45,669 nt of DNA from Bacteroidota bacterium (GCA_947507965.1 CANNQU010000021.1:1-45669), one strand, 5' to 3'. Shown: positions 387 to 37,640, numbered from the stretch's first letter. Program-made: numbers and translations. Notes: generated by a model from the sequence alone, not told the origin.

Positions 387-1655
387 ATGAAAAAACGGGC
401 TTCAGATTTTAATAATTTAACGATAATAAATTTCATAACAAAATTGAAATTTGTTTCAATCTTCATTTCCTTTTCCTTTATAGGTATTTCTGGGTTTGCT
501 CAGAGCTATTGTGTTCAACACGGAGGTACTCCACCTGAACCAGGTGTTGTTCAAACTTGCCAAGATGGAGGTCCGTGTGGCAATTGTCCTTCATGTCAGG
601 CCATGCGTGATGAACGGCAAAAAAAAGTAAGCGAACAGCAAGCGCAAGAGGCACAAACTTTTGCAATCCAACAAGCAAAACAACTTCAAGCACAGGCTGA
701 AGCAAGTCGGCAAGCACAAAAGGATTTGGAATTCTTGAAACAGGCAGATGAGAACAAGGCACAATTGGAGCAATTAGTGGCTCAAAACGAAGCCAAAAGG
801 CTAGCCGCCTCTTTAGAATTTGAGAAACAAATTGAAGGTTCACGAAAGGAACGTGATGATTATATGGCAAATCTAAGCGAGACACAGCAGTCATTTGCAG
901 GAAAAGCAAAAACCATAGACGATGATATTTTTTGGGATGCAACAGTTGAAATGACAAATTATGAAACTGTATATGATAAGGACAAATATTTATATGCTTT
1001 TAAAAATAAAGCTGGTAGTTTGGTGACTGGTTATAATTATAAATATGCCCAACCTTATTATCAAGGTGTAGCCCCTGTTTTAAAAGTTGGTGACAAGTCA
1101 TGGTCTCTTATAAATTCAAAAGAAGAAGTACTAATACGATTTGATGATGCCTATCAAAAAAAATATGGTTTGGAATATTTTAGTATTGATCCTTTTTATA
1201 ATGGAGTAGCTGTAATTCACACAGCTAGCTATAACTTTGGCTGTATTGATACTCGAGGAAAACCTCTGATTAAAACAGAATTTTCCCAAATCGGAAATTT
1301 CCAAAATGAGGTTGCTATTGCGGAGAAGCAAATTCGTCATGAAGTGTTTAAATCGGAATGGCGCGATTTTAATAATATATACTTTAACTATTATCTTGTA
1401 GGTATTATTGATAAAAATGGGGAGTGGGTAAATCCACCGAAAACAAAGTTTAATATTGAATACCCCATGCCAATGATTGTTTTAACTACTGAGCTCCAAC
1501 AACCCGCTAATTTAACCTATGCAGAATGGAAAGCCCAACTTGCTGCACAAAAAATTTTGGATGAAATTGAATACGAAAAAGAAAGCAAGAGATTCGATAA
1601 TGAAAAAACCCGACGACTTAATGAAGCACGTTCTCAGGGAATGATAATAGAATAA
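387..1655 (+). CDS. Exported coiled-coil protein with WG-like repeats
   Basis: The 422-residue product has a long N-terminal region with a hydrophobic stretch around residues 22-38 that ends in a likely signal-peptidase site (GFAQ/S). A short cysteine cluster follows (six Cys at about residues 42-70), then a Gln/Ala/Glu-rich coiled coil (about 75-160). The C-terminal half carries degenerate WG/KWG-type units, in which motifs such as 'G.IDKNGEWV' and 'GCIDTRGKPLI' recur at intervals. WG-repeat proteins are beta-rich and usually extracytoplasmic in Bacteroidota; their roles are poorly defined. It is the first gene of a tight four-gene operon whose products all have export signals; the next start codon is 1 bp after its stop. 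No enzymatic motif is visible. The function is unknown. Confidence 0.8.
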   Translation: MKKRASDFNNLTIINFITKLKFVSIFISFSFIGISGFAQSYCVQHGGTPPEPGVVQTCQDGGPCGNCPSCQAMRDERQKKVSEQQAQEAQTFAIQQAKQLQAQAEASRQAQKDLEFLKQADENKAQLEQLVAQNEAKRLAASLEFEKQIEGSRKERDDYMANLSETQQSFAGKAKTIDDDIFWDATVEMTNYETVYDKDKYLYAFKNKAGSLVTGYNYKYAQPYYQGVAPVLKVGDKSWSLINSKEEVLIRFDDAYQKKYGLEYFSIDPFYNGVAVIHTASYNFGCIDTRGKPLIKTEFSQIGNFQNEVAIAEKQIRHEVFKSEWRDFNNIYFNYYLVGIIDKNGEWVNPPKTKFNIEYPMPMIVLTTELQQPANLTYAEWKAQLAAQKILDEIEYEKESKRFDNEKTRRLNEARSQGMIIE

Positions 1656-1656
1656 A

Positions 1657-3183
1657 ATGAAAGGTATAAAACTAATATTTATTTTCTGTTTATTATACGG
1701 GCAGCTTTTTTCACAAACTGCTAAGGAAAAATACCAACAAGCACAACTAGCATACGATGCAGGAAAATATGCTGATGCATTATATTACCTTGGTGAAACG
1801 GAAAATGCGCTCGGAGGTACCAATGCACGCATTCAATCTTTAAAAACTCTTGTATATTATGATCAGGGGGATAAGGAAAAAGCGGCAATAGAATTAGCCA
1901 AATATTTCAGAGTGGTATCTTCTTCGATGGAAGCGACTGAAGGCTATAAAAATATGCTTGACCTTCAGAAAGAATTGAAAACAACTATTGAAAATAATTT
2001 CAATGAAAAGAAGAAAAAAGCAGAGGTAGAGCATCAGAAGGAACTTAATGCAATTGCCGCTGATCTTGCTCATAGACAGGAAGAATATTATTACAATTTA
2101 ATTAAAAACTGTGAATACCCTCAAGCTATCCGTGATTTTATCAATAAATATCCCAAGAGTTCGTACAACCCTTCTCTTGAAAGTAAGATTTCGAGAATCA
2201 GTAAAGATATTGATAAACAGACCAACCCGGGATTGTACCTCGTGGAAGCTTTACAAACAGGTAATCAAACACTTGTCGATAAATTATTATCGTATGGCTG
2301 TAATGTAAACGTGAAAGGGAAATCCGGAAAATACGCGGTTCATGTTGCGGTAGCAAAATCAGATCTAGCTAATCTAAAAAAACTTTTTTACGCCGGGGCT
2401 AATATCAATTTGAAGGACGAAAATGGAAGAACACCATTGTCCTTGGCTGTAGAAAAAGAAAATTTAGAACTAGTTGACTTCCTAATTAATACCGGTGCTG
2501 ATTTAAATAAAAAAGACAATAAAAACGAAGGGCCTGTCTTTTATGCTATACGTGCCAATTCTCTAACTTTGATTCAGAAGTTAATTACGTATGGTGCTGT
2601 CCTTACCGAAAAGAATACAACAGGCTATACACCTCTAGTAGTTGCGATATTACAGGACCATATTATTATCGCAATTGTACAAAGCCTTTTGCATCAGGGT
2701 GTTTATGTGAATCGTTTAGTAAATGCCAACACTCCGATATACTACGCAACCTATAATAATAAAAACGAACTGGTGGAAATGCTTCTTAAATACAATGCTA
2801 ATCCAAACATAAAATCATCCGATGATTTTACAATGTTGAGCATAGCTACCACGAACAGCAATATAAAAATGATGAAAATTCTTTTGTACGGAAAAGCAAA
2901 TCCTAATCAGACCTCCGCAAATAATTTCTGCCCCCTGCATTACACCGTATTCCATAATCAGCTTGAAGCAACCAAACTTCTATTACTCAACGGGGCATCA
3001 GCAAATATAAAAGGACTTTATGGATGGACTCCGCTTCATTTTGCCTGCCGTGAACAAAATGTAGAAATGGTAAAACTTTTATTGGCAAACAATGCAGATA
3101 AAAACATTAAGGACGTTTGGGGTCGCAGGCCAAAAAAAATAGCCCGAGAACGCCATTTTAAAAATATAAAAAAACTCCTATGA
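1657..3183 (+). CDS. Exported TPR-like/ankyrin-repeat protein
   Basis: The 508-residue product begins with a clear signal peptide (hydrophobic residues 4-18, cleavage near LFSQ/T). Residues 22-90 form two helical pairs resembling a TPR ('A...Y..GKY.DAL..L'). A charged helical linker (about 100-150) follows, then from about residue 193 to the end there are eight or nine ankyrin repeats with the typical 'G.TPL..A......V..LL..GA..N' pattern. Ankyrin repeats mediate protein binding, and with a signal peptide this one would act in the periplasm or outside the cell. It starts 1 bp after the upstream gene and overlaps the next one by 4 bp (ATGA), so the genes are probably translationally coupled. 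The partner and role are unknown. Confidence 0.85.
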   Translation: MKGIKLIFIFCLLYGQLFSQTAKEKYQQAQLAYDAGKYADALYYLGETENALGGTNARIQSLKTLVYYDQGDKEKAAIELAKYFRVVSSSMEATEGYKNMLDLQKELKTTIENNFNEKKKKAEVEHQKELNAIAADLAHRQEEYYYNLIKNCEYPQAIRDFINKYPKSSYNPSLESKISRISKDIDKQTNPGLYLVEALQTGNQTLVDKLLSYGCNVNVKGKSGKYAVHVAVAKSDLANLKKLFYAGANINLKDENGRTPLSLAVEKENLELVDFLINTGADLNKKDNKNEGPVFYAIRANSLTLIQKLITYGAVLTEKNTTGYTPLVVAILQDHIIIAIVQSLLHQGVYVNRLVNANTPIYYATYNNKNELVEMLLKYNANPNIKSSDDFTMLSIATTNSNIKMMKILLYGKANPNQTSANNFCPLHYTVFHNQLEATKLLLLNGASANIKGLYGWTPLHFACREQNVEMVKLLLANNADKNIKDVWGRRPKKIARERHFKNIKKLL

Positions 3184-3689
3184 AAAAAAATATTTTGCTA
3201 TGTCTTTTTATAATATATTTATCATTTTCATGTAAAAAAGAAGATCATATAAATGAAGTACTTACCAGGACAGGTGGTGGTGCTGATATTACGATAATGA
3301 GCAGTGATCAACCATCGGCTACCGTGATATTTAAAGGTAGTTTTAAATCAATAAACATGGGTGCATACAAAACAGATGAGGATGCATACACTGTTATACT
3401 TGAAGACATTGTTGATGGTAGTTTAAAAAAACAATTATTGCTAAAGTTCGAAAAATATCAAGTTGGCTGGGTTAGCATAACAGGTGGACAATTTATATTA
3501 ACTTCCGGAGCGGTTTCTACTGTCTATAGCGTCGATTGGATTAGGGACCCAAGAATACTTAATTTACAGCTTGCAGATGTGAACAATATAATTTCAGGAA
3601 GCTTTAGTTATCCTACTCCGTATGCAAATGGAACCCGTCATATTGTGTCAGGAACATTTTATTCTTATCGTTTACCAGATAGAAACTAA
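3180..3689 (+). CDS. Small putative lipoprotein
   Basis: The 169-residue product has a lysine-rich start, a hydrophobic core and a lipobox (LSFSC, Cys18) directly followed by charged residues. This indicates lipidation by Lgt and cleavage by LspA. The mature part has many alternating hydrophobic/polar stretches and ends in a run that looks like beta strands ('ISGSFSYPTP...HIVSGTFYSYRL'), suggesting a small beta-sandwich or barrel. I do not recognise a family. The start codon overlaps the stop of the ankyrin gene (ATGA), and the next gene begins 2 bp after its stop, so it belongs to the same operon. Confidence 0.75.
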   Translation: MKKNILLCLFIIYLSFSCKKEDHINEVLTRTGGGADITIMSSDQPSATVIFKGSFKSINMGAYKTDEDAYTVILEDIVDGSLKKQLLLKFEKYQVGWVSITGGQFILTSGAVSTVYSVDWIRDPRILNLQLADVNNIISGSFSYPTPYANGTRHIVSGTFYSYRLPDRN

Positions 3690-3691
3690 AT

Positions 3692-4342
3692 ATGAAAAAA
3701 ATATTTATATCCCTTATATTGATGGGCTTTTCTATAAGTCTATTATCCCAACCTACAGATAAGAACTACTATAGTCCGTATAATTTTCCAAATAAGTATG
3801 AATCCGATAAGATGAATAAGAATTTTAACATGTCATTCGTATTTCCAGTATTTGGAGGACATTATTACAATTCATATAACTATGCGGATTTCGCACGAAT
3901 TAAGATTATCGAATATATGAATATAAATTTTGGAATTGGAGTTTCGGGCGGTTGGTATTCTAATAAAACTGTTCATTACACCATTGAAAGTCAAGAAGCG
4001 TATACGCTTAAAACAGCCAATTTCATCAAAGCATTATTGGGTGGCGGTCTTACCTTTAGACTTGCAGATCCAATAAATCTTTCTGCCCGTTGTGGTTATT
4101 TGGTTGGTAAGGAAAACTATATAACTTCAGAAATTCGTCCAGCATATTTATACAATTATTGGGACAAAGTTACTTATTCCCAATCTTCGAATTTTAAATT
4201 CAGATCAGGTTTCTTTTATAATTTTACTCTGCTTTATGCATTTAAAGCAGGAGGGCTTAGTGTTTCTCGGGGTGCGTTTTTTATGGCATCAGGAATTGAG
4301 TTTATGAACTCAATTGGGATTGTTTTCCCCATTGGGAACTAA
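3692..4342 (+). CDS. Exported outer-membrane-like protein
   Basis: The 216-residue product has a signal peptide (cleavage near LLSQ/P at about residue 20). The mature sequence is rich in Tyr, Phe, Asn and Gly in alternating patterns ('FGIGVSGGWYSNKTVHYTIE', 'GGLTFRLADPINLSARCGYLVG'), as in small outer-membrane beta-barrels or conserved 'porin family' proteins of Bacteroidota. The last residues form a hydrophobic strand but do not end in the canonical terminal Phe. It is the last gene of the four-gene operon. With the lipoprotein, ankyrin and WG proteins it could form an envelope complex; that is inference from co-localisation only. Confidence 0.7.
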   Translation: MKKIFISLILMGFSISLLSQPTDKNYYSPYNFPNKYESDKMNKNFNMSFVFPVFGGHYYNSYNYADFARIKIIEYMNINFGIGVSGGWYSNKTVHYTIESQEAYTLKTANFIKALLGGGLTFRLADPINLSARCGYLVGKENYITSEIRPAYLYNYWDKVTYSQSSNFKFRSGFFYNFTLLYAFKAGGLSVSRGAFFMASGIEFMNSIGIVFPIGN

Positions 4343-4587: not shown

Positions 4588-5940
4588 CTAAGGCTTAGAT
4601 TCATTCAATATCGAATTCAAAGTACTTCCTAAAGCCTCAATCAACTTTGACTCGAGTGCTGAGAAATCATTTAACGATGAAAACGGAATTTCAATCGCCG
4701 TAACCGTAATTTTATCTTTTCCTCCGAATCCTGAAACCAATTCAAATTTATCCGGTGGATTGATTTCTTCGGAATTGTTTGGATAAACGAGAATTACATC
4801 GGTACAACCACGCTTATATGCGTAACTCAACATCTGATATAAATCACTCTGGGCAATGCCTTTCTTGGGGTCAGACTTAAAATTACCGGGTCTTAGCTTG
4901 TACTTTGTGTCAACGATTATTGTTTTGTTGGAACCATCCTTTGAGGTAAGAAAAATATCATGTTGCATTTGAAACACCTTCGGGTTATTGGAAAGGTATT
5001 CATTGGATTTCTGATATTCGACTTTCCACTGCTTCGAAAATTTGACTTCTAAAAAACCAGCCAAGAAATCCTCGAAGATATATTCCATTGGAAATAACAA
5101 GCACCATTGTGAAAGATCATATGTATTACTCGAATAGAGTTTTTGGCCAAGTATTAACCGACAACTATCAAGAATTTTGATGTAATCTTCGAAAAAAGAA
5201 TTCAGTGATATGCTTTCAATATCGTGGATAGAATAAGCCTGCTCTTCAACTTCATCCAAAATAAATACCACCTCTTGCAGCGTTCGAAGATTCTCCGAAA
5301 ACTTGGTTTGATTAAGTAGCAACCGGGAACAGTACTTAATTACACGATTAACTTTATTATCAAACACAAAGGGTTCATAATCACATTCTATGTTCTGAAA
5401 ATTTGCATTCGATATGCCCCGGTTGATATAGCGTTTGAAATTTATAGCTCCTCTTGGGGTTTGCATTGTATCTTCTAATTCCTGATACTTAGTCAGAGGC
5501 TGCTTGGAAACACAATTTAAAAACTGATTGGCAATTAAGTTGATGATTAACTCCGGGAATTCGTTGACCGAAATTGTGTCGAGGGATGCCTGATCGAAAG
5601 GGAAATTCCATTTACGGCAATAGCTGAACCAGTAAAAGATATGCCGAAGCATTAACATCTTTTCCGCTTCAGATGGTTGAGGTAATTGAAGTTTGAAGAC
5701 CTTCGGATAAATTTCGATAACTTCATCTCCATTTTGTATAAAGCCGACGAAATTATTTGCCCGAATCTGATTGTTGTCAAACTGTAAAAAAGGTTGATAA
5801 TGCTTATCGTCTGACCCTTCAGACAATTCAATAGCCTCATCTAAGAAAAGTCGCTGTTGCCAGATGCCTTTCAAGATTTGTTGTAAAGCAATTTTGTTAT
5901 TAACGCTTACCCAATTACCATATTCATAAATTAAAGCCAT
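4588..5940 (-). CDS. mcrC: McrC-like nuclease subunit of McrBC restriction system
   Basis: McrC is the endonuclease partner of the McrB motor in modification-dependent (type IV) restriction. This 450-residue protein has the N-terminal beta-rich McrC region (about 1-85, with 'GFIQ.GDEVIEIYPK') and a C-terminal PD-(D/E)XK nuclease core: Glu near 290 (FPMEYIFEDF), HD at 327-328, then VDTKYK with Asp344 and Lys346. All expected catalytic residues appear present. Its ATG overlaps the mcrB stop codon (TAATG), which is typical translational coupling of the pair. The family assignment is secure; the recognised DNA modification cannot be read from this subunit. Confidence 0.92.
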   Translation of the reverse strand: MALIYEYGNWVSVNNKIALQQILKGIWQQRLFLDEAIELSEGSDDKHYQPFLQFDNNQIRANNFVGFIQNGDEVIEIYPKVFKLQLPQPSEAEKMLMLRHIFYWFSYCRKWNFPFDQASLDTISVNEFPELIINLIANQFLNCVSKQPLTKYQELEDTMQTPRGAINFKRYINRGISNANFQNIECDYEPFVFDNKVNRVIKYCSRLLLNQTKFSENLRTLQEVVFILDEVEEQAYSIHDIESISLNSFFEDYIKILDSCRLILGQKLYSSNTYDLSQWCLLFPMEYIFEDFLAGFLEVKFSKQWKVEYQKSNEYLSNNPKVFQMQHDIFLTSKDGSNKTIIVDTKYKLRPGNFKSDPKKGIAQSDLYQMLSYAYKRGCTDVILVYPNNSEEINPPDKFELVSGFGGKDKITVTAIEIPFSSLNDFSALESKLIEALGSTLNSILNESKP

Positions 5941-8870
5941 TATGCCTTATTTATATTCCAATTATAATTCGTTGAATCATAAGATACATTCCAACCAGTA
6001 TCAGTGAAAATTTTCGAAACAATATCAGTTTTATTTGAGAAATATTCCGTCAACAATGGGATAACCTTATTTCTTAAAATCGTTTCTATAGGTTGGGAAT
6101 TCATAAAATATGCATGCCCGATCAGATAATCGGCAGATTTTTTCTCATTAAAAATCGCTTCATTTATTTTCCGAAGTAAGCTGCTACCTTCAGCGCTGTA
6201 GCCCTCATATTTAGGATAATAGCCCAAAAACTCAAACCTCCTCCGTAAAGCAATATCAATTAACGCAATTGATTTATCAGCGGTATTCATCGTACCAATG
6301 AGGTAAAGATTTGGAGGGACACCAAATTCTTTCTCTCCATTCGGTAATGTAATTTTGAGTTCATTCTCTTCGCCAATACGCTTATCATCTTCCAACAGCG
6401 TGATCAATTCACCGAAAACTTTTGAAATGTTTGCCCGGTTTATTTCATCAATTATAAGAACAAATTTTTTGAGGCTTTCCACTTTTGCACCGGCAGTTGG
6501 CTTTCTCTTCTCCTGAATAAGATTCACCAATGGGTTGTAGTATGCAGCCAAGCCAGAGGTAACAACTTTAATTCCTTCAACTATATCTTCAAGTGTTTGA
6601 ATACTTAAAGTGTGTTGAGTGCCTCCGGAAGGCTTGGCAAAATGAATAGTTGTGTCACTTACATCGATAATTTTAAATTTAACTCCCGAAAGCATTGTGA
6701 TTTCTACTTCCTCATCTCCTTCAACGACAGGTTTCACTATCTCATTAAAAACCTCATCAAAAGTCCTACCCAAAGCGGCCTTCTCCTTGGATGCGTAATA
6801 ATTTTCCCTTGCTCTTTTTGCAATTTCATAGAATATGCCTTTATAGGCTTTAAATCTCAATAGCTCATTTTCAGCATCAGGTCTTATGCCCACCATAAAA
6901 TCTTCGTACGAATAATTTTGATGAAAAGTGAGAAACTCAATTTGTCCTGACTTTCTTAACTCATCAAAAATAATCTTGTTTGTTTTGTGATCGGTTGATG
7001 AGTAATTTTCCGGGGAGGTAATCTCGACTGCCTTATCGATGCTATTATATGTTTTACCGGTGCCCGGAGGCCCGTATAGGATTGTATTCAATGATAAATT
7101 CATTTTTCCGTTTTTTGGTTGTGTGTTATGCCCGAACACATAATTTTCAAATTCAATATTATTGTATTGTCTAAAACTTGATTTTGATGTCTTGTTTAAT
7201 TCTATTTCAATAGCTTTCAGAAAGGATTTCTTTTCTTCATGTTTTAAACTAAAAACATTGAAATAGCTGTAATACGGTAGTGGCTCTACACCTTGAAATC
7301 TACTACTATTTTCTAAAAGCTTATCCATTGAAATCACTCCGAACTTTCCCTTCGAATTTGATAAGTATAAATTCAAACAATAGCGCTGCCCAACAGTAAA
7401 GTTCAGGTTATCCCCACTTGTGCTGAAAACCAATCTTACATCATCTTTAGATAAAATAAATTCGGCAATTATTTCTTTAAGCAAACCAAAATAGTTATCG
7501 AGATCTTCTTTCTTAAATTTGGCAAGAAGTGCGGAAAAATCGCCAGAAGCGCTTTCCAATAATTGTAGAATAGCGGAATATTCTTCTTTGTTTGAAGCAA
7601 AATTTGTCCCCTGATTGCCCACTTTAAGATTTGAAAGCTCAATAATACTATTTACCCGTTCCTTTGTAATTGGATTAGCTGCAAGATTCTCGGCAATCTG
7701 AATTTTAACTTTGTCTGATGGAATTTTTTCGACTTCTGACCGATAATATTGTAATTCCTGCTCTTCATCTAATCCTTTATAAACATCAGAAATCACCTCT
7801 CCCAGGGCATAACAACCTGAATTCTTCCCAGTAAGCCATAAAATAAATTTGTCGCCCGTTTTAATTTTGTCCTTATGTGCCTTAACGCTCCAGGTGGAAA
7901 TGGCATTTGCATTTAATGCGGCAACTACATTATAGATTTCCGGGTTTCCTTGAAAAATCCAATAACTTGGACTCGCCTCTTTATCCAACATTTGGTAAAG
8001 AATATCTTGGGCCAAAAGTTTATGATTTACACCATCATAATACTCAGGTATCAATTCTTTTACTTTTGAAATTAAATCGTCGTTCGGCTTAATATAATCT
8101 TCGATTATCTGATCAATCAATTCTAAATAATGAGAGTACTTTTCATTGCTTTTTGCTTCCTCAATACCTAGTAAATTGCAATACTTCTTATAATATGAAG
8201 ATTTATAAAAAGTGTATTTTTCTGGATCATGATAGGTTAAATAGGCTGCGATCGTCCTTTCATCCTGATGATGAGGCATAGTATTATTAATGGTCCGATA
8301 AACTACCAAAGATTCAGAATTAAAATGCTTAATTCTCTCAGGTAAATCTGTGTTCTCGTTAAAAAGGTCTTTAAAAAGCAATCTAAGCTCCTCTGGCTTC
8401 TCTCTAGCTATATGATTAAGGACACCACCAGCCATTGCATAAATGAGATTATTAAATCTCACCTTCTTCACTTCGTTATGAAAGTCAGGTGCATTTACAT
8501 CCGGCCAACCCTTGAAATCGTGAATTAACTTCCATTTGTATAACTCATCTTTAAGTTGAGTTGTTTCAATTTGGTTCTTATATTTTTCAATTAACGATTT
8601 AATGGGATCAAGCTTTGGGATTATTTCAAAACCTTCTTTTTTCAATAAATTAAAAGCTTCAGTGTCCTTACCCCCTTCAAACTCATTAGGGCTAAGTTCA
8701 ACCCCATTAATAAATCGATTTGCTATCGATAAAACCAATTTAGGAGGATATTTTTTCCCATCATATAATAAATCATAGGTAGAGGATTGCCTTCCTTTTC
8801 GAATACCTTTAGCATCAATTTCTTGAATTGCTTTTTTGATATGTTCATCGGTAATGTTTTCTGGAATCAT
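5940..8870 (-). CDS. mcrB: McrB-like AAA+ GTPase with N-terminal head and EVE-like domains
   Basis: The 976-residue motor and recognition subunit is more than twice the size of classical McrB (about 460 residues). Residues 1-85 resemble the N-terminal head domain of ScoMcrA-type modified-DNA endonucleases. Residues 302-430 look like an EVE domain ('YWIFQGNPEIYN', 'W.V..HKDKIKTGDKFILW..G....GCYALGEV'), a PUA-like fold that reads modified cytosine or adenine. Residues 450-575 resemble the MrcB N-terminal (DUF3578) region. The AAA+ core has Walker A GPPGTGKT (600-607), Walker B LIIDEINRAN (805-814) and the McrB signature MNTADKS (861-867, Lys where Arg is usual) followed by an arginine-rich ALRRRFEF. 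It is transcribed ahead of mcrC. It probably restricts DNA with modified bases; the exact base is unknown. Confidence 0.9.
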   Translation of the reverse strand: MIPENITDEHIKKAIQEIDAKGIRKGRQSSTYDLLYDGKKYPPKLVLSIANRFINGVELSPNEFEGGKDTEAFNLLKKEGFEIIPKLDPIKSLIEKYKNQIETTQLKDELYKWKLIHDFKGWPDVNAPDFHNEVKKVRFNNLIYAMAGGVLNHIAREKPEELRLLFKDLFNENTDLPERIKHFNSESLVVYRTINNTMPHHQDERTIAAYLTYHDPEKYTFYKSSYYKKYCNLLGIEEAKSNEKYSHYLELIDQIIEDYIKPNDDLISKVKELIPEYYDGVNHKLLAQDILYQMLDKEASPSYWIFQGNPEIYNVVAALNANAISTWSVKAHKDKIKTGDKFILWLTGKNSGCYALGEVISDVYKGLDEEQELQYYRSEVEKIPSDKVKIQIAENLAANPITKERVNSIIELSNLKVGNQGTNFASNKEEYSAILQLLESASGDFSALLAKFKKEDLDNYFGLLKEIIAEFILSKDDVRLVFSTSGDNLNFTVGQRYCLNLYLSNSKGKFGVISMDKLLENSSRFQGVEPLPYYSYFNVFSLKHEEKKSFLKAIEIELNKTSKSSFRQYNNIEFENYVFGHNTQPKNGKMNLSLNTILYGPPGTGKTYNSIDKAVEITSPENYSSTDHKTNKIIFDELRKSGQIEFLTFHQNYSYEDFMVGIRPDAENELLRFKAYKGIFYEIAKRARENYYASKEKAALGRTFDEVFNEIVKPVVEGDEEVEITMLSGVKFKIIDVSDTTIHFAKPSGGTQHTLSIQTLEDIVEGIKVVTSGLAAYYNPLVNLIQEKRKPTAGAKVESLKKFVLIIDEINRANISKVFGELITLLEDDKRIGEENELKITLPNGEKEFGVPPNLYLIGTMNTADKSIALIDIALRRRFEFLGYYPKYEGYSAEGSSLLRKINEAIFNEKKSADYLIGHAYFMNSQPIETILRNKVIPLLTEYFSNKTDIVSKIFTDTGWNVSYDSTNYNWNINKA

Positions 8871-9219
8871 TTATTATCCTCGTTATTAATGCGAATTTTC
8901 AAGTAGTATTTATAACCGCATAAAATGCAATCTAAATCTTGGTAGATGCGAATATATAGCAAGTTATTAGTTTTTTAGAATTGCGTCAAACTAATTCCAT
9001 CAATTCCTGCTCACAAACAAAGATTATTCAGGATTCACGAACAATTACATTTATTGAGCACTTAACAAAAGGTGAAATGTTTAAAAGAACGGTGAGAAAT
9101 TAAAGCGAAAATGTGTATTTCCCAGATTAGATTTGACAAACTTAAGGCGAAAGCGAAGGTGTAGTTCGCCACTTCGCTATCCCGAAAAAACCGTGTTACT
9201 CACTCAATTCCTTCCGGGG

Positions 9220-9477
9220 TGTTAAAATGCGCATTTTTCAATACAAAAAACGCTCAAACACTTGTAAACATTGAAATATCAAAACGAATATAATGTGTTT
9301 TCGCTTTTATTTATGGCATTTTCGCGATGATTTTCCCATTGAATTAAAGCGAAAAGGAAAGCGAACACGGGGAGTTACACGGACTACAAAAGAATACAAA
9401 AACCCCTCAATTAATTGTGAATTAGAAATACGTATTCTCTTCAAATTCAAACTGCCCGATGAGTATTTTCTTGAATG
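9220..9477. repeat. Copy A of a ~258-bp noncoding block shared with 35820-36075
   Basis: Direct comparison shows long matching runs with 35820-36075, including a run from TTTATGGC to GATGATTTT of more than 20 identical bases around 9311-9336, and shared flanks such as GGAAAGCGAACACGG. An open frame starts at 9293 in this copy and at the matching ATG (35893) in the other, but substitutions do not favour third codon positions, so I do not call it a gene. The block lies just downstream of the fic position in both places. Confidence 0.85.
9422..9475 (-). pseudogene. Remnant of the 3' end of a fic gene
   Basis: On the minus strand this stretch reads FKKILIGQFEFEENTYF followed by a stop. It aligns with the last 17 residues of the Fic protein encoded at 36020-37069 (FKKIFIEQFEFAVNTYF). 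The homology stops abruptly at about 9477. The rest of the gene has been replaced by the lipoprotein gene at 9535-9966, so the island once carried fic here. Confidence 0.8.
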
Positions 9478-9534
9478 AACGTATATTATTTCAAAAACTT
9501 CAAGATAAAATTTATAGCAGAGAATCGGATTTTT

Positions 9535-9966
9535 TTATTTTTTGCTGTAAAACCCTTTACTCTTATACTCCTGGTCAACCATTTCAAATTCTGTTTCAGA
9601 AATAAATTTCAATTTGTTTTTTATTTCCTTAATATGAGTACCATGGTCTTGTTCAATTCTAAGTTTTAGGATAAAAGGATAACCATCGCTATCTGATTTT
9701 TCAAGTGTCCATTCGCCATTATGCGGATTTATCATAATACGCCCCCCGGATTCATATTCATAATTATAAACAAGCTTACCGTTTTCTTTAAATTCATAAT
9801 TGGAATTCTTGAAAATGCGTTGCTCCTCCTCCATAATAATTTCATTAAATGAAGTGATGGTTTTTGTACGAACCCATGTTCCAATAAGTCTTTTTGAATC
9901 ATTTTTACACCCATTCAGAGATAATAGAAATGGTGTTAGTAATACAATTAATAATAACTTTTTCAT
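9535..9966 (-). CDS. Lipocalin-like lipoprotein
   Basis: I choose the ATG at 9966 (143 residues) rather than an upstream in-frame start, because it gives a perfect lipoprotein signal: MKKLLLIVLL, a hydrophobic core and lipobox LNGC (Cys20). The mature part begins 'LIGTWVRTKTITSF', the usual start of lipocalin-like (DUF4488/lipocalin_5 type) domains of Bacteroidota, with later strands 'GEWTLEKSD' and 'KLKFISETEFEMV'. Such proteins are envelope lipoproteins of unknown ligand. It sits 38 bp downstream of the TOPRIM primase stop on the same strand. In the related element right of attR the corresponding place is occupied by fic, so this is an accessory slot. Its role is unknown. Confidence 0.8.
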   Translation of the reverse strand: MKKLLLIVLLTPFLLSLNGCKNDSKRLIGTWVRTKTITSFNEIIMEEEQRIFKNSNYEFKENGKLVYNYEYESGGRIMINPHNGEWTLEKSDSDGYPFILKLRIEQDHGTHIKEIKNKLKFISETEFEMVDQEYKSKGFYSKK

Positions 9967-10004
9967 TTGCTCAATAATTTCTTCGAAAATACAAAAAAAA
10001 TTAA

Positions 10005-10979
10005 CTACTCCACCACAAACTCCCTCCAATCATACTCCACCAGATAATCTGCCAAATCATATCCCTGCTCCCGGTCATCTTTGTTGGCATTGCGCTCGAG
10101 TAGACTTGAAACCGAAACCGAAAACTTCGATGAACCCGAAAACGAAATATCACTTGACAGTTCCATCGCCTTGGTTTTCCACTTGTCATATCCATTCAAA
10201 TCAGGGAAAAGTATAACCTTGCGACCCTTTAAAACAGCACATTTCTCCGCATTTAGGTTACTAATACTACCGGCAGCCAACCAGATATATTCCGGTAAAT
10301 ACACACTCGAAATTATCGCTGTTTTTTCGCTTTCGACGATGGCAACAGGCATGGTTTTTTCGCGCAGCAGATGCTCTCCAAAAAAACATTGTTTCAATTC
10401 ATAGTCCGGCAACTTTAATTCAGAATGTACCCATGTCACATGACTGAATGGCTCCCGAACTCTTTTACCTGTCTCAGAATTATACAACATAATCTTTCCG
10501 GTTCTGATTTTGCCTTCTATATCTATCTGCCAGAAAACCGTACCCCCCTCCCACTTTTTCGCGCTGCCGATATAATATTTCGCGATGAGTTTCTCGGTGT
10601 TCGCGCTACCGAACAGACGTCTAAAATAAGTCACCAAATGATTGCTATCATAGTGTTTCAACGTGCCTTTAAGTGTTTCTTTCAGGATAAATGAAGTGGG
10701 TTTCGGGATAGATTTCGGTTTCGGGTTGTTTCGAATTAAATAATAATCGTCATCGGGTGCATCGAATGCAATATCATGATCGTGAAAATATTGTTTCGGT
10801 GAATAATGGTAACCACATTTGATTTCGCGACTGCACCTGCCAACATCCTGATGAATAGGCTCTCCGGTTTCGTTGTCGATATAAAGCGTGAATGTTTTAT
10901 CCTTATCTCCACAGCTAGGACAACGATACCGGGAATTCATTCCAGTATAAGGGGCTAAACTGTATCTGTAATCGCTCAT
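10005..10979 (-). CDS. Zinc-finger/TOPRIM primase-like protein of the element
   Basis: The 324-residue product starts with a zinc-binding region of primase type (Cys20, Cys23, Cys49, Cys55; 'CPSCGDKDK' and 'CSREIKCGYH'). A central region follows ('GTVFWQIDIEGKIRTGKIMLYN', as in DUF6371-type proteins), then a TOPRIM-like fold with '[13 protein letters not shown]' and 'KVILFPDLNGYDKW'. The Asp-x-Asn replaces the usual Asp-x-Asp. Together with the D5-type helicase upstream it probably forms the replication-initiation unit of the element. It is on the same strand as the helicase, separated by 87 bp holding a strong hairpin (11003-11054). A broken copy lies at 37245-37637. It could work in plasmid-like replication after excision; that is inferred. 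Confidence 0.8.
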   Translation of the reverse strand: MSDYRYSLAPYTGMNSRYRCPSCGDKDKTFTLYIDNETGEPIHQDVGRCSREIKCGYHYSPKQYFHDHDIAFDAPDDDYYLIRNNPKPKSIPKPTSFILKETLKGTLKHYDSNHLVTYFRRLFGSANTEKLIAKYYIGSAKKWEGGTVFWQIDIEGKIRTGKIMLYNSETGKRVREPFSHVTWVHSELKLPDYELKQCFFGEHLLREKTMPVAIVESEKTAIISSVYLPEYIWLAAGSISNLNAEKCAVLKGRKVILFPDLNGYDKWKTKAMELSSDISFSGSSKFSVSVSSLLERNANKDDREQGYDLADYLVEYDWREFVVE

Positions 10980-11002
10980 TAAATTATTGTTGTTTATTTC
11001 GG

Positions 11003-11054
11003 TTCACTTCGTTCACGTGATGCACCATCGGGTGTATAACGTGTACGAAGTGAA
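11003..11054. promoter_or_regulatory. 24-bp hairpin between helicase and primase genes
   Basis: Positions 11003-11026 pair with 11031-11054 around a 4-nt loop (ATCG), with only two mismatches and one G-T pair (outer arm TTCACTTCGT / ACGAAGTGAA). There is no T-run on either strand, so it is not an ordinary terminator. It could be an RNA attenuator or processing site between the two genes, a replication-origin cruciform, or the trace of a small palindromic repeat. Confidence 0.75.
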
Positions 11055-11066
11055 CGGAGTGTATCA

Positions 11067-12593
11067 TTAAAACAAAACTTTTTTCACAAAGATAATCAAA
11101 CCGTAATTTCTTCTTTCGGTTACAAACCCAGCATTTCGTAGTCGTTCGGCAAAGGTTCGCTTGGAACAGGCATGGTATCCGCTATCGGAACAATAGGTGC
11201 GGTAATATCCAAACAACTCTTTAAATTCCATGTAATCATCCGTATGTTTGGCGTAGCCTTCATCGGTTAAAAACATTTGTACATTGTCCGTTTGCATCTT
11301 GTAGATTTCTATTTGCCTATCCACTGCATCGCTTTTAGTGAATCCTTTCTGCAATAAAAGACGTCTCAAGCCGTCTAAAACCCAATTGAAAACTCCCGAC
11401 AACTCGATATCAATAATCTTTTTGGATAGCTCTTTATCTTGCTCTGCTTCCGGGATCGTAACATCGAAAGCGATTATGAGAAACCTACGGAAATACGCTA
11501 GTGATTGCTCCACTTCTTTGGGTAATTCGTTACAATTGAAAATCAGTTTGGCGTAATCATGCAAGGTGAAAGGTTCTCCATAAGGCAAACGGGCATCTAC
11601 CGGTTCACCGGAAACCAATTGCTTGAAAATGGAAGTTTCCAGTTTTCCGTTGATCTCACTGGCATAGTTTACGAGCTTGTTTCCGAGCATGGCACGGTAA
11701 TATCCGTTTTCGTTGGTAAGGTTTTGCAGGGAATAACTGCTCACATTTTTATCGCCACCGAGTAACGCATTCACAATTTCGAAGAATACCGATTTCCCAT
11801 TTGCCCCGGTACCGTAAAGCAATAATGTTTTCTCTAATTTCAAACGGCTGGGCTTCACAAACAAATAACCAAGGTATTCGGCTAAGATCATTTGCCTTGA
11901 TAAATCGGGCTGCACCATCGATAAATATTTCTCAAACAAGGGGGCTTTCGCTTTCGGGTTGTAGCCGAAAGGTAATTGGTAGGTGATGAAATCTTTTCGC
12001 TCTGGTGGTCTTAAAAACTGTTTTTCGTGATCAAACTCAAAGGTGCCATTGAGTAAGTTAATTAACACTACTTGGCTCGACTGGGGCGGCTTTGGAAGAT
12101 TGGCAACCGCCATAAATTGTTTGAAAAACTGTTCCCGAAACGTGTATAACCTGGCATCAAATTTATCAATGCCCATTTTTTCAGCGGCTTCGCCCAGGAA
12201 TGATTCAAATTCGGCATTATCAATCATGTTCCAGTAGGCACCGTTATAGAGGTACACACAATTTTGATTTTTGCAGATTCCCCAATTGTTTTCCTGTGCA
12301 ATTTTCAGAATCTGTTCGATGCCACTCACCAAATAATGCTTCTTACCCAGCTTTTCACTTTGTTGCTTTAGCGCAGCTTGCTTTCTGAAATCTACTTTAT
12401 CAATTTGCTCGAGTAGAAGAATAAGTATTTCATTATGATTCACGGCATCAAATACCTTGGTTAGTTTCTGAACTTCTTGCATTAGTTCCTGCTTGAAGGT
12501 GGCAGCATCAAAGGAAGGATTCAAGCTTCGCTTAAACTCCTCGGTTTCCAAAACCGAAGAATCGAATGTTCGGTTGAGCTGACTATCTTTCAT
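11067..12593 (-). CDS. D5/P4-type phage-plasmid replicative helicase
   Basis: I use the ATG at 12593 (508 residues); the longer frame would begin with TTG at 12623. The protein has an N-terminal D5_N-like region with 'GICKNQNCVYLYNGAYW' and 'FITYQLPFGYNPKAKAPLFEKYL', then an SF3/D5 helicase core with Walker A GTGANGKS (about 260), 'SLAYFRRFLIIAFDV' and a C-terminal winged-helix segment ('YYRTYCSDSGYHACSKRTFAERLRNAGF'). This family unwinds the origin of phages, plasmids and satellites such as P4. The start overlaps the end of the HTH gene by 11 bp, so the two are probably translationally coupled. It marks the element as self-replicating or formerly so. Confidence 0.92.
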   Translation of the reverse strand: MKDSQLNRTFDSSVLETEEFKRSLNPSFDAATFKQELMQEVQKLTKVFDAVNHNEILILLLEQIDKVDFRKQAALKQQSEKLGKKHYLVSGIEQILKIAQENNWGICKNQNCVYLYNGAYWNMIDNAEFESFLGEAAEKMGIDKFDARLYTFREQFFKQFMAVANLPKPPQSSQVVLINLLNGTFEFDHEKQFLRPPERKDFITYQLPFGYNPKAKAPLFEKYLSMVQPDLSRQMILAEYLGYLFVKPSRLKLEKTLLLYGTGANGKSVFFEIVNALLGGDKNVSSYSLQNLTNENGYYRAMLGNKLVNYASEINGKLETSIFKQLVSGEPVDARLPYGEPFTLHDYAKLIFNCNELPKEVEQSLAYFRRFLIIAFDVTIPEAEQDKELSKKIIDIELSGVFNWVLDGLRRLLLQKGFTKSDAVDRQIEIYKMQTDNVQMFLTDEGYAKHTDDYMEFKELFGYYRTYCSDSGYHACSKRTFAERLRNAGFVTERRNYGLIIFVKKVLF

Positions 12594-12903
12594 TTTTATA
12601 CAGCTCTTTATTGATTTCAGCAATGGTGGATTTCCTGCCTTCGTCTAACCAACTTTGCAAATCGGCTCTCTTAAACAAAACCGTTTTCGCTCCACGTTTG
12701 ATAAAGGGAATGAGGCGGCGGGAAGTGTAACCATAAAGTGTTTGTTTGGCGATACCTACAAATTTGGCGGCATCGGTGGCATTCATCAGCTCGCTGACTT
12801 CCGACGATGTGTTAACTGGTTTTTGTTCGCATAGTGCTTCACGAACAGAATCTTTAATGATGAACTTTAGTTGTTCGGTAGTGATCAGGATTACATTTGA
12901 CAT
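12583..12903 (-). CDS. Excisionase-like helix-turn-helix protein
   Basis: The 106-residue product has an N-terminal helix and, from about residue 40, a MerR/excisionase-type winged helix: 'ATDAAKFVGIAKQTLYGYTSRRLIPFIKRGAKTVLFKRADLQSWLDEGR'. This is the standard HTH_17 pattern found before replication genes in Bacteroidota integrative elements. It may control the downstream helicase/primase genes, help excision, or both. A 9-bp perfect inverted repeat lies 51-69 bp upstream of its start and is a candidate operator. Confidence 0.9.
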   Translation of the reverse strand: MSNVILITTEQLKFIIKDSVREALCEQKPVNTSSEVSELMNATDAAKFVGIAKQTLYGYTSRRLIPFIKRGAKTVLFKRADLQSWLDEGRKSTIAEINKELYKNER

Positions 12904-14139: not shown

Positions 14140-14901
14140 ATGCTTAAAGATTTAATTATAAAACACGGTAAGGAAAAAATAAATACACTTACCAAATATC
14201 CTTCCATCCTTACACTTCATAAGTTAGGAGAGAAAGGAAAGCTACAAAATGAACTTACCACCTCCATAGAAGGCGAAAAGATGTATGCGTCGGAAAAAAT
14301 AGATGGTACGAATGCTAGAATTATATGTTATGGCAATGAATTCCTCATTGGTGCTCGCGAATTCATTTTGCACTATTCGAAAGATTTGTATTTCGATAAT
14401 TCACAAGGAATTGTGGAAGGATTGAAGTACATGAATTTGAATATACCACAAACAGATTCGTTAACTGTTATTTTCGGGGAATTTTATGGCGGAAAAACAT
14501 CGGCAAACTCAAAATGGTACGGGCAGGATAAAAACGGATTCCGTGTATTCGATGTTGCGGTTTATAATGACCTTTCGATTTTGGAATTGCCATTGCCGGA
14601 TATTTCCCGTTGGCGAGAGAGGGAAACAGAAAGTGGAATAATCTATGGACAAAACTTTCTCCACTTGAATAACATGCACAGTCAATTTCCCAATTTTGAA
14701 TTTGTGCCAACCGTCGAATTTGAATTAGGTGATCTATCACATAAAACAATTTTGGAAAACCTCAAGAAATTTATTCCAACAACTAAGGCAGTTTTATCCG
14801 CAAATGCATCCGGAAAAGCGGAAGGTGTGGTATTGCGGAATGAAAATCGTTCTAAAATTGTGAAAGTGCGATTTGAGGATTATGAAAGGGCACTTCGTTA
14901 A
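14140..14901 (+). CDS. RNA ligase family protein
   Basis: The 253-residue product belongs to the nucleotidyltransferase superfamily of RNA ligases. Motif I is KIDGTNAR with adenylated Lys53. 'FGEFYGGK' (112-119) and 'GFRVFDVAVYN' (132-142) fit motifs III and IIIa, and near the C-terminus 'AEGVVLRNE' and 'KIVKVRF' fit motifs IV and V. All catalytic elements appear present, and there is no added OB-fold or kinase domain, so it resembles compact Rnl2-like ligases. It is the only plus-strand gene between 4343 and the right end of the island and converges on a GIY-YIG gene. It could repair RNA nicked by host or phage nucleases; that role is inferred. Confidence 0.88.
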   Translation: MLKDLIIKHGKEKINTLTKYPSILTLHKLGEKGKLQNELTTSIEGEKMYASEKIDGTNARIICYGNEFLIGAREFILHYSKDLYFDNSQGIVEGLKYMNLNIPQTDSLTVIFGEFYGGKTSANSKWYGQDKNGFRVFDVAVYNDLSILELPLPDISRWRERETESGIIYGQNFLHLNNMHSQFPNFEFVPTVEFELGDLSHKTILENLKKFIPTTKAVLSANASGKAEGVVLRNENRSKIVKVRFEDYERALR

Positions 14902-16401: not shown

Positions 16402-17514
16402 TCACTCCAGCTCTCCCTTAAACGCCCTCTGGCTCAAACTTCCATACAAATTCTCCAACTCCTGCAAACTTTTTTCGTATTGGATTTTGATGGCTTCTGT
16501 TTTTTCAACGATTTGAACAAAACGGGTTTGGAGTGTAATTGTTGGCATAGGCAATTTCATTTTTTTTAGCTTTTCTCCTGTTAAATGCGAAATTGTTGCA
16601 GCACTCTTATATTTGTTTAATCCCCCGTTAAATGTATAAATCCTAAACATGTAAACGAAGTATTCAGGTAACGCAAACTTTTTGTTTAATCTTATTCTGT
16701 GAATTGCCTTTTGAAAATAACATTCCTGCAATTGATTTTTCCAAATTGCACATCTTCCTATTTCTCCACCTTCACACATCAATATATCGCCATGCATCAA
16801 ACTGAATTCTATTTTATCCTTTTCATCAAAATCCATTTCTAGCAAATCGTCAAGTTTAAACTCAAACCAATTTACATTTGAATTCCCTAAGTAGGGCTTA
16901 AGGTTGTTACCAATAATTTTACTGCCATCAAGCATTTTCCCTAATCGGGATTCACCGTAGTCAGAAACTTTCAATAATTCCCATCCCTTCTCATTCTTCA
17001 AAGGGTCTCCAAACATCTCCAAAAAAGTACTTCTCAAATATTCCTCCAACATTCGAATGCTTTCTTTGCGCTGGCTTATCAGTTCTTCGGCTATGCATAA
17101 TAATTTGGCGATGTGGATTTGATCCTCCTTCCTTTCAGGAATATTTAAAACAATTTTGCTTAATCCTTCTCTCGTAATTTGCGGTTGTGCAGCACCTGTG
17201 ATTACATCTTTAAATCCTCTTTTATTCAATGCATAATACAAAAACATTTGGTCAACATCATCACTTAAATTATCTAATGACATTGCATTTGAAGTGATAT
17301 AAGCTTTTGGCTGAGTAATATTAATTGTGCCACATGTTGCACCTCTACATGTGAGCGCTAAAGTGGGCAATTCATGGTTGAATTCTTTATACCTACCTAT
17401 AATTCCATTAGCTCCATAAACGGGAAATCCTTCTTTCGTTAACTCGGAAATTGGTAGATTCTTCCATTGCTTGGGATTGGAAATCTCCGTAAGCTTAACT
17501 TTTCTCCATTTCAT
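16402..17514 (-). CDS. hsdS: Type I restriction specificity subunit HsdS
   Basis: The 370-residue product has two target-recognition domains, each followed by a long conserved helix. TRD1 covers about 1-130, ending 'PQITREGLSKIVLNIP'; its helix is 'LLCIAEELISQRKESIRMLEEYLRSTF'. TRD2 covers about 180-320, ending 'ISHLTGEKLKKMKLPMP'; its helix is 'IVEKTEAIKIQYEKSLQELENLYGSLSQRAF'. It would set the bipartite DNA target of the HsdMRS complex. It overlaps hsdM by 4 bp (ATGA). The subunit seems complete, so the system is probably functional; the target cannot be read from sequence. Confidence 0.93.
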   Translation of the reverse strand: MKWRKVKLTEISNPKQWKNLPISELTKEGFPVYGANGIIGRYKEFNHELPTLALTCRGATCGTINITQPKAYITSNAMSLDNLSDDVDQMFLYYALNKRGFKDVITGAAQPQITREGLSKIVLNIPERKEDQIHIAKLLCIAEELISQRKESIRMLEEYLRSTFLEMFGDPLKNEKGWELLKVSDYGESRLGKMLDGSKIIGNNLKPYLGNSNVNWFEFKLDDLLEMDFDEKDKIEFSLMHGDILMCEGGEIGRCAIWKNQLQECYFQKAIHRIRLNKKFALPEYFVYMFRIYTFNGGLNKYKSAATISHLTGEKLKKMKLPMPTITLQTRFVQIVEKTEAIKIQYEKSLQELENLYGSLSQRAFKGELE

Positions 17515-19088
17515 GAAATTTGAGCTTTTAATTCTGATAATCCCTTTAGAATATTAATTTCCATGGCTTCCAATCTTCCGAAAATCACTTCCGGATTCTC
17601 ATATACCACCTTTTCATAAACCTCCACTTTATAAGTACTCAAATTCAAATCGTAATCATTCCCAACGATTTCCTTTTTCGGAACCATAAAATATTTCTGT
17701 TTCCGGTCGATGTCTTTTTTTGAATCTCTGGTTTTGTATCGTTGCACAATATCCTGCAAATCACTCTCGGCAATTTTATTCCGCTTATCGTCCAAAGTGT
17801 ATCCATCGGCCTTCATATCGTAAAACCAAACATGATTCGTTTCTCCACCTTTGGTAAAAATTAAAATGGCAGTACTTACTCCAGCATACGGTTTAAAGGC
17901 GCCACTGGGAACTGCAATCACTGCTTTCAGTTCAGCTTTGTCAATTATTAATTTTCGCAAAGCTTCAAACGCCTTCCCGGAATTTTGAATCACCCCACTG
18001 GGCACAATCACCGCTGCCGTCCCTCCCATTTTCAACATATTAAAAATACGTTCCACAAAAAGCAATTCGGTTTTGGTTGTGGGAAGTTTCAGCCCTTCGT
18101 TAATATCTCCCTTATCGATATTACCCGTGAATGGCGGGTTGGCCATAATTATATCAAACTGACTGTCTTCGTTATAGGTTTTGCTTAGGGTATCTTTATA
18201 ATCAATCTTTGGCTCGTCAATACCGTGCATCATGAGATTCATCAAGCCCAAACGCACCATGGTGGTATCAATATCATAACCCACAAAACTCTGATCGAGA
18301 ATGTTCTTTACTTTCTGTGTCAACACAGCACTAATGGCAGCCCGTTCGAAACCATCTTCATCCTTACTTAGCTTCGCAGGATCTTTCTTGCGTACAAAAT
18401 CTGTGAGAATATATTGATACGATCCTAAAAGGAAACCGCCTGTACCGCAAGCCGGGTCTGCAATTCGTTGTCCTAATTGTGGAGCCACTAATTCGGCCAT
18501 CAGTTTAATAATATGCCTTGGCGTTCTAAATTGACCATTTTTCCCTGCCGTGGCAATTTCACTCAAGAGCATCTCATATACATCACCTTGTATGTCCTGG
18601 AATGCATGTCCGCCTTCGGTGGCATCTTTTTCAATTTCTTTAAAAATATCTTCTACAATATTAATAGCCGAAACCAGCAAACTGGCTTTGGGCATTATAA
18701 ACACGGCATTCGCCATGTGTTTGGTGAACAGGCCTTCGCCGGATGCACCATCCTGTATGGTTTTAAGAAATGGAAACACTTTTAGCTGAACATGCATCAG
18801 CATTTCATCAGCAGGCTTGTGTTTGAACACACTCCATCTCAATTCGGTTTTATCAATCGTTTGGTCGCTTCCCGGAATGGTGAACTTGCCTTTGAAACGG
18901 GACGTATATTTTTCTCCGGTGAAATCGGCATCGCGTTCGCGTTTGGCTTCGAGGTCGTCCAAACGTTTCATGAAGATAAGATAGGTAATTTGCTCAATGG
19001 CGGTCAATGGATTGGCGATGCCGCCTTCCCAGAAGTTCTGCCAAAGTTTATCGATTAGCGATTTTAATGTTGCGTTGTTTTGAAGCAT
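17511..19088 (-). CDS. hsdM: Type I restriction-modification methyltransferase HsdM
   Basis: The 525-residue N6-adenine methyltransferase has an N-terminal HsdM helical domain ('LWQNFWEGGIANPLTAIEQ', about 13-32), the AdoMet motif DPACGTGGF (211-219) and the catalytic motif NPPF (317-320). It methylates host DNA at the HsdS-defined site and is also required for cleavage by HsdR. It sits 8 bp after the DUF4062-ATPase gene and overlaps hsdS. All core motifs are intact. Confidence 0.95.
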   Translation of the reverse strand: MLQNNATLKSLIDKLWQNFWEGGIANPLTAIEQITYLIFMKRLDDLEAKRERDADFTGEKYTSRFKGKFTIPGSDQTIDKTELRWSVFKHKPADEMLMHVQLKVFPFLKTIQDGASGEGLFTKHMANAVFIMPKASLLVSAINIVEDIFKEIEKDATEGGHAFQDIQGDVYEMLLSEIATAGKNGQFRTPRHIIKLMAELVAPQLGQRIADPACGTGGFLLGSYQYILTDFVRKKDPAKLSKDEDGFERAAISAVLTQKVKNILDQSFVGYDIDTTMVRLGLMNLMMHGIDEPKIDYKDTLSKTYNEDSQFDIIMANPPFTGNIDKGDINEGLKLPTTKTELLFVERIFNMLKMGGTAAVIVPSGVIQNSGKAFEALRKLIIDKAELKAVIAVPSGAFKPYAGVSTAILIFTKGGETNHVWFYDMKADGYTLDDKRNKIAESDLQDIVQRYKTRDSKKDIDRKQKYFMVPKKEIVGNDYDLNLSTYKVEVYEKVVYENPEVIFGRLEAMEINILKGLSELKAQIS

Positions 19089-19096
19089 TCGTCTGT

Positions 19097-20890: not shown

Positions 20891-20891
20891 G

Positions 20892-23687: not shown

Positions 23688-23703
23688 TTACTTTAATAAC
23701 ATT

Positions 23704-26379: not shown

Positions 26380-26439
26380 AAAAGTAATTCTTACAATGTG
26401 GCTTCTCAATCAATTTTTGAAGAGGCATTAATGTTCTTT

Positions 26440-29283: not shown

Positions 29284-29417
29284 TTTGAAATTTTTTACTA
29301 CTTGTTTTACGAAATAAAAATAAATTTTAAAAAAGATGGATACCCTTATCACTTCTAAATTAATGCAATAAAACACCTGGACTTAAAAGTTAAATCTCAT
29401 TTCGATTCGAGTGTAAT

Positions 29418-35140: not shown

Positions 35141-35171
35141 GCGAGCGAAGATACATTATAGCAGTTTAAAA

Positions 35172-35192
35172 AGTTGAAACAAAGTTGAAACA
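35172..35192. promoter_or_regulatory. Putative integrase arm-type sites, right end
   Basis: AGTTGAAACA occurs at 35172-35181 and 35183-35192, with the same 11-bp pitch as the pair at 191 and 202. The sites lie between the integrase start and attR. Confidence 0.7.
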
Positions 35193-35306
35193 TTTGGGGT
35201 AAAACAGGGTATTTTGGGGTATGGAGGGTACTTGCTCATTTTGCTAAATCATTGATTTCATTGGCTTTCAAAGCATTGGATAAAATAGGATATGATTAAT
35301 CTCGAG

Positions 35307-35371
35307 GCTTTGGGAGCAGAAGGTCGTAGGTTCGAATCCTGCCACCCCGACCAATCCCACAAAGGGTTTCA
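35307..35371 (+). repeat. attR: 65-bp direct repeat with orphan tRNA-Pro 3' half
   Basis: Identical to 97-161. Only the 3' half of tRNA-Pro (anticodon loop to CCA at 35353) is present and the sequence 5' of it is unrelated, so it cannot make a tRNA. It is the original downstream part of the target gene displaced by integration, or the shared junction of two tandem elements. Confidence 0.95.
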
Positions 35372-35392
35372 GGAAACTGGAACCCTTTTTTT
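35361..35392 (+). terminator. Second copy of the tRNA-Pro terminator hairpin
   Basis: A stem of 35361-35372 with 35377-35388 around a GAAA loop, with a T-run. Compared with 151-182 the closing pair has swapped from C-G to G-C, a compensatory change that preserves the structure outside the identical 65 bp. Confidence 0.8.
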
Positions 35393-36019: not shown

Positions 36020-36075
36020 TTAGAAATACGTATTCACAGCAAATTCAAACTGCTCGATGAATATTTTCTTGAATG
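35820..36075. repeat. Copy B of the ~258-bp block shared with 9220-9477
   Basis: Diverged direct copy of 9220-9477. The match begins at TGTTAAAATGC and continues through the 3' end of fic. In this copy the adjoining fic gene is full length. Confidence 0.85.
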
Positions 36076-37069: not shown

Positions 37070-37081
37070 TAAAACTATTTG

Positions 37082-37153
37082 TAGCTCACAAAAATAGCAA
37101 ATACGGCTCAATAAAGTAGTGTTTTGAGCTATATTTTAATAATTATTGAGCTA
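37082..37153. promoter_or_regulatory. Candidate operators upstream of the Fic gene
   Basis: TTGAGCTA occurs directly at 37124-37131 and 37146-37153. Inverted partial copies are TAGCTCA at 37082-37088 and GCTCAA at 37107-37112. All lie within 90 bp upstream of the Fic ATG (37069). They are good candidates for binding by the protein's own winged-helix domain. Confidence 0.6.
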
Positions 37154-37637: not shown

Positions 37638-37640
37638 TGA

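Follow-up and report, generated by a model that had tools for sequence, protein, structure and literature searches.

An orphan operon of four exported proteins on a mobile, defence-carrying element at tRNA-Pro in a Bacteroidota bacterium

In Bacteroidota, phage resistance can be conferred from the cell exterior, as by BT1927, a phase-variable S-layer lipoprotein of Bacteroides thetaiotaomicron (PMC12548429). Lipoproteins also mediate superinfection exclusion in enterobacterial phages, mEpimmI Lpp being one example (PMC11893012). The operon described here lies in a 45,669-nucleotide stretch of Bacteroidota DNA (GCA_947507965.1, CANNQU010000021.1:1-45669; hereafter the window) and encodes four exported proteins, P1 to P4. 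Its likeness to BT1927 is one of concept, and no sequence relationship is claimed. BT1927 is a single S-layer protein with an invertible promoter and has no ankyrin or WG partners, whereas no invertible promoter was seen at the operon. P3 and mEpimmI Lpp are both small lipoproteins on a mobile element, and P3 could act at an outer-membrane receptor. Nevertheless, the superinfection-exclusion lipoproteins are single genes working alone in enterobacterial prophages (PMC11893012), whereas P3 sits in an operon and carries a Bacteroidota surface signal.

The DNA around the operon resembles the tRNA-targeted DUF6371/D5-primase elements, which combine an att repeat in a tRNA gene, a tyrosine integrase, a DUF6371 protein, a primase, HTH_17 and restriction or Abi cargo. 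The same components are present here; compared with the other elements of this kind, the four-gene envelope operon occurs in the present copy only. Homologues of the DUF6371 core protein were detected in a minority of the genomes of the family (7 of 62). The borders were mapped to the following features.

67-143, + strand: tRNA-Pro (TGG) gene, called with ARAGORN; the integration target, its 3' half rebuilt by attL
97-161, + strand: attL, a perfect 65-bp direct repeat that copies the 3' half of tRNA-Pro and the bases following it (95% over 85 bp, 97-181)
189-214, no strand: 26-bp repeat of the AAAGTTGAAACA type, just inside attL; a related partner lies at 35170-35195, inside the other end
33923-35140, - strand: tyrosine integrase, just inside attR (Phage_integrase, E 1e-13)
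35307-35371, + strand: attR, where the 65-bp tRNA-Pro repeat recurs

From the 65-bp tRNA repeats at both borders, the integrase inside attR and the inner 26-bp repeats, we infer an element of about 35.2 kb integrated at tRNA-Pro. The AAAGTTGAAACA-type repeats at its two ends are probable integrase arm sites. The operon begins 244 bp past the tRNA-Pro gene as the first cargo after attL, ahead of McrBC, and its position inside the mapped att sites makes it almost certainly cargo of the element. In the initial annotation it had been placed at the left end of a defence island. That placement holds but leaves out two points: contig 21 itself ends where the window begins, and mapped att sites enclose the operon within an integrative element. 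When an empty site was looked for in genome G002, the right flank was found (77%), but the contig had no tRNA near that flank and contained a DUF6371 fragment. The contig of the present genome starts inside the 3' end of an apparent other tRNA (1-37; GGTTCGAATCCCTCCCTCACCGCA), which suggests a tRNA cluster upstream of tRNA-Pro.

Inside the element, the operon is followed by further cargo and the core, and a second, decayed element lies beyond attR.

4588-5940, - strand: McrC, convergent to the operon and in the same cargo slot
5940-8870, - strand: EVE-domain McrB-like AAA protein, likewise convergent to the operon and in its cargo slot
9535-10029, - strand: lipoprotein resembling Lipocalin_4, also in this cargo slot; the match is just under the Pfam cut-off
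10005-12903, - strand: element core, comprising a Zn-ribbon/DUF6371 protein, a D5-type primase-helicase and HTH_17
16402-33794, - strand: more cargo, comprising a type I restriction set, DUF4062/ATPase, a GmrSD-like gene, an FG-GAP protein and a helicase-nuclease
35392-37900, no strand: a second member of the element family, decayed, standing in tandem at tRNA-Pro, with copies of 9216-9491 (83%) and 10001-10402 (92%)

Several genes of the long cargo region deserve description. The helicase-nuclease resembles PADLOC PDC-S37, and between it and the GmrSD-like gene lies a T9SS-secreted FG-GAP/TIG protein (26440-29376), a second envelope or secreted cargo. A protein with DUF4062, HATPase_c_4 and a Fic-like C-terminal domain is encoded at 19097-20890, between the type I genes for HsdM and an HsdR-like protein, and a 12-bp tandem repeat occurs with this gene at 19325-19384. 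In the interval from the core to the type I restriction set, an RNA-ligase-family protein (14140-14901) is encoded on the + strand amid - strand genes; it had no PADLOC match.

In related elements, the region from the tRNA/att end to the core holds other genes. In the decayed element, a Fic gene (36020-37111) lies in the cargo slot between the copies of 9216-9491 and 10001-10402, and the broken DUF6371 gene matches the intact copy at 82-97% identity, depending on the piece. A 23-bp repeat of the ATTTCGGTTTCAACTGAACCAC type, in about four copies, separates this remnant from the chromosome (37706-37797). In a genome of the same genus (G003, L078:6486-9875), a related core stands beside tRNA-Val with a two-gene cassette between them, one gene of which encodes a PIN protein. 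In G437 (L080:2-12024), AbiTii and AbiP/putAbiC adjoin the core, and nearby are a type I restriction system and an AAA_21 ATPase that carries a fused methyltransferase-like domain. In G418, an exported TPR protein holds the position corresponding to the operon; on comparison, it showed no kinship with P2. Because related cores or the decayed element hold AbiTii/AbiP, Fic, a PIN cassette or an exported TPR protein there, the stretch from the tRNA/att end to the DUF6371 core is a variable cargo slot that often, but not always, takes defence genes. In the present element, the operon and McrBC fill this slot.

The operon itself consists of the following features.

336-343, + strand: candidate promoter TATATTTG, a Bacteroidota -7 box (TAnnTTTG) 43 bp upstream of the first ATG
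387-1655, + strand: P1, 422 aa; signal peptide, Cys-rich stretch, coiled coil (68-166), two WG repeats and C-terminal helix
1657-3183, + strand: P2, 508 aa; a signal peptide leads into a helical N-terminal region, followed by about six ankyrin repeats at about residues 195-505
3180-3689, + strand: P3, 169 aa; lipoprotein with the mature N-terminus C-K-K-E-D-H
3692-4342, + strand: P4, 216 aa; exported protein, possibly a small outer-membrane beta-barrel on weak evidence

The four + strand ORFs follow one another in the order P1-P2-P3-P4 with intergenic spacings of +1, -4 and +2 bp. For each gene, the best coding score of six frames was that of the forward frame, with the window's own genes as reference. 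All four products have an N-terminal basic n-region and hydrophobic core. No enzyme family was found in any of them with Pfam, NCBIfam or PADLOC. On spacing, on export signals and on the lack of a recognisable enzyme domain, the initial annotation is thus upheld. The signal peptides of P1, P2 and P4 look ordinary. The C-terminal T9SS sorting domain (Por_Secre_tail) was matched in none of P1-P4, while the same library detects it in the FG-GAP protein of the element. As TAnnTTTG boxes occur at chance frequency across the window, the assignment of TATATTTG at 336-343 as the -7 promoter box is suggestive only. The tight spacing suggests that the four products are used jointly. It bears on the possibility that the genes are not one system, being instead lineage-specific exported proteins of types common in Bacteroidota that are co-transcribed on the element by chance and have weak or independent functions. 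A 4-bp overlap and gaps of 1-2 bp favour joint expression, and none of the four genes has lost its coding signal, both of which speak against such a chance assembly.

The WG repeats of P1 were matched in two stretches above the Pfam cut-off (PF14903, E 5.9e-11, 42.6 bits). AlphaFold2, run on the single sequence, predicted helix 68-166 to be a coiled coil with fair confidence, while the rest of the P1 model was unusable; the earlier description of P1 as a coiled-coil/WG protein therefore stands. Exported WG-repeat proteins (PF14903) are found in Bacteroidota, and P1 resembles them in having two WG repeats behind a signal peptide. P1 differs in its additional Cys-rich stretch (C42, C58, C64, C67, C70) and two helical coiled-coil parts, and its similarity to other WG proteins is limited to the repeat region, at about 26-36% identity. 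Since WG repeats are present in 56 of the 58 genomes of the relatives sample, they say nothing specific; they are common in the class and carry no defence signal.

In P2, the ankyrin repeats were matched in six stretches above the Pfam cut-off (PF00023, E 3e-46). The N-terminal region is TPR-like below threshold (TPR_16, E 0.16; YfiO/BamD, E 0.02 and 0.0014, far below the cut-offs), so that of the TPR-ankyrin architecture first proposed the ankyrin part was borne out and the TPR part, with TPR_16 at E 0.16 and the BamD-like match at E 0.0014, was not. Exported bacterial proteins with a signal peptide followed by ankyrin repeats occur in several genomes of the class, as in P2. Nevertheless, the N-terminal 195 residues of P2, the non-ankyrin part, have no relative in 64 family genomes. 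Searches with full-length P2 returned ankyrin repeats only, and the neighbours at those loci were unrelated (roughly 1.5 kb of flank read). P2 also gave the sole PADLOC match among P1-P4, over its ankyrin repeats, and no defence family beyond generic repeats was found. PDC-M72A was rejected as the identity of P2 because the match spans the ankyrin region only.

The optimal lipoprotein export signal of Bacteroidota, C-X-K-(D/E)2-X, was established in Capnocytophaga canimorsus, in which export signals of two other Bacteroidetes also work (PMC5080379). The N-terminus of P3 reads MKKNILLCLFIIYLSFS/CKKEDHIN, with the lipobox SFS/C18; SFSC is a relaxed form of the lipobox, and CKKEDH fits the export signal. 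Among 12 lipobox ORFs from the fetched loci, P3 alone had this form. As C-K-K-E-D-H corresponds to the published signal, P3 probably faces outward from the cell. Its earlier assignment as a lipoprotein is supported by both lipobox and export motif. No Pfam family was found for the mature part even at E 10, and Pfam, NCBIfam, PADLOC and PHROGs gave no match above cut-off. A P3 match in G412 (E 2e-4; residues 5-117, 23%), beside a SusD-like gene, was judged to be signal-peptide and low-level similarity.

P4 gave no Pfam family at E<=10 for the mature part, its single-sequence AlphaFold2 model had a pLDDT of 31, and its count of amphipathic strands was marginally above that of shuffles (P 0.054). 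A small outer-membrane beta-barrel is possible on this evidence, and the label barrel-like in the initial annotation was not confirmed. Its view that the last two products look like envelope proteins holds for P3, through the lipobox and surface-export motif; P4 is exported, and its barrel was not substantiated. A P4 match in G044 (E 8e-4) was set aside, being part of a 649-aa frame whose surroundings are unrelated.

Relatives of the operon were sought in genomes, contigs, viruses and plasmids. No orthologue of P1 was found in 58 relatives, 395 genomes of the class or 64 genomes of the order; orthology from the WG matches was rejected, as every match covered the repeats or the coiled coil only and the neighbours were unrelated. 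P3 and P4 had no credible relative in the 395 class genomes. P1 and P2 were not found in contigs of 84,980 species, nor P1-P4 in IMG/VR viral contigs, by scans that reach close relatives only; the genome searches reach further but include one genome per species. Plasmids searched with P1, P3, P4 and the P2 N-terminus yielded no relative, the one P1 match, at 25% identity, falling in the WG region, and phages searched with P1 yielded none. NCBIfam, PADLOC, PHROGs and PDB sequence searches returned nothing beyond generic ankyrin and coiled-coil matches, and for P1, P3 and P4 the PDB gave no credible match. Since no orthologue was found in any set searched, the operon is an orphan in these sets, and the term "conserved four-gene system" is unsupported. 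The co-occurrence of the four families in other genomes, proposed earlier as a check, was negative in all sets searched; the accompanying statement that no system of such composition has been described agrees with the libraries searched. As no relative of any kind emerged, the outcome counts neither for nor against the envelope-located barrier, adhesion or contact system raised in the initial annotation. The operon is real, intact and an orphan, on a mobile element that carries defence genes.

These results also bear on the chance-assembly explanation. It gains from the absence of any relative of the set, with P1, P3 and P4 having none beyond repeat or signal-peptide similarity, from WG repeats in 56 of 58 genomes and from ankyrin matches in other genomes that adjoin unrelated genes. 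Together with the spacing and intact coding signal, which oppose it, we consider it rather unlikely.

The operon is read as passenger DNA in the accessory slot of the tRNA-Pro integrative element, and a tentative mechanism can be outlined. The four products, acting together, would form an assembly linked to the outer membrane, with P3 lipid-anchored and probably displayed on the cell surface and P4 presumably in the outer membrane. P1 and P2, with their coiled coil, WG and ankyrin modules and no T9SS tail, may lie in the periplasm, serving as scaffold or sensor. The likeliest single benefit one can name would be an altered cell surface that lowers the entry of phages or competing elements. Such exclusion would complement the restriction systems, which act after DNA entry.

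Entry exclusion is consistent with the location of the operon within mapped att sites with an integrase, its tight same-strand spacing including the 4-bp overlap, export signals on all four products and the fit of P3 CKKEDH to the optimal surface signal, seen in 1 of 12 lipobox ORFs. Moreover, cargo of the slot is often defence, as with McrBC here, AbiTii and AbiP/putAbiC in G437 and Fic in the remnant element, and there are precedents in the BT1927 S-layer (PMC12548429) and in superinfection exclusion (PMC11893012), to which no sequence link was found. Nevertheless, the searches returned no relatives and hence no conserved association with defence. The slot also takes genes without an obvious defence role, such as the lipocalin-like lipoprotein here or G418's exported TPR protein, and with a T9SS FG-GAP protein on the element, envelope cargo need not be defence. 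In addition, the PADLOC matches of P2 are to ankyrin repeats only, and the P4 barrel is unproven. It is the neighbourhood alone that argues for defence, and it does so somewhat more strongly than in the initial annotation because a related element fills the equivalent slot with abortive-infection genes. The whole mechanism, an outer-membrane assembly giving entry exclusion, is accordingly put forward as doubtful rather than expected. That the operon is a dedicated four-protein outer-envelope system which stops phages or rival elements before their DNA enters, and which is unrelated in sequence to the families in the libraries searched, is unlikely; the operon is not a demonstrated new system.

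Alternatively, the four proteins may build an envelope complex with an ordinary ecological role, such as adhesion, particle or ligand capture or the handling of envelope stress, the operon then serving as a fitness gene of the element and not as defence. Binding repeats and a surface lipoprotein suit adhesion or uptake equally well, the element also bears the T9SS-secreted FG-GAP/TIG protein, and the class has many WG proteins with no link to defence. Against this, no TonB-dependent transporter, SusD-like or enzyme gene lies nearby, and most slot neighbours of assignable function in the element family are defence genes. An ecological role of this kind is a fair-sized possibility short of an even chance, and entry exclusion and the broad alternative of some other envelope trait are about as likely as each other.

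A further explanation is periplasmic immunity, with repeat proteins that bind and neutralise toxins delivered by rivals or specified by related elements. Exported proteins that are rich in repeats and diverge rapidly fit immunity proteins, and all four products enter the envelope. Nevertheless, no toxin, T6SS or polymorphic-toxin gene was recognised in the neighbourhood, four co-transcribed immunity genes of differing architecture would be unusual, and surface export of P3 fits poorly. We regard periplasmic immunity as quite improbable.

Interest in the operon depends solely on recovering the same set in another place or on a phage phenotype. If it acts before DNA entry, as entry exclusion would have it, mobile defence islands would be seen to combine restriction systems with a barrier at the envelope, and this envelope layer would be missed by gene-family searches because surface proteins diverge fast. 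If the operon is not defence, it still shows clearly that envelope cargo is exchanged at a defined slot within a family of tRNA-targeted elements. The mapped att sites and slot borders point to where the equivalent cargo of relatives lies.
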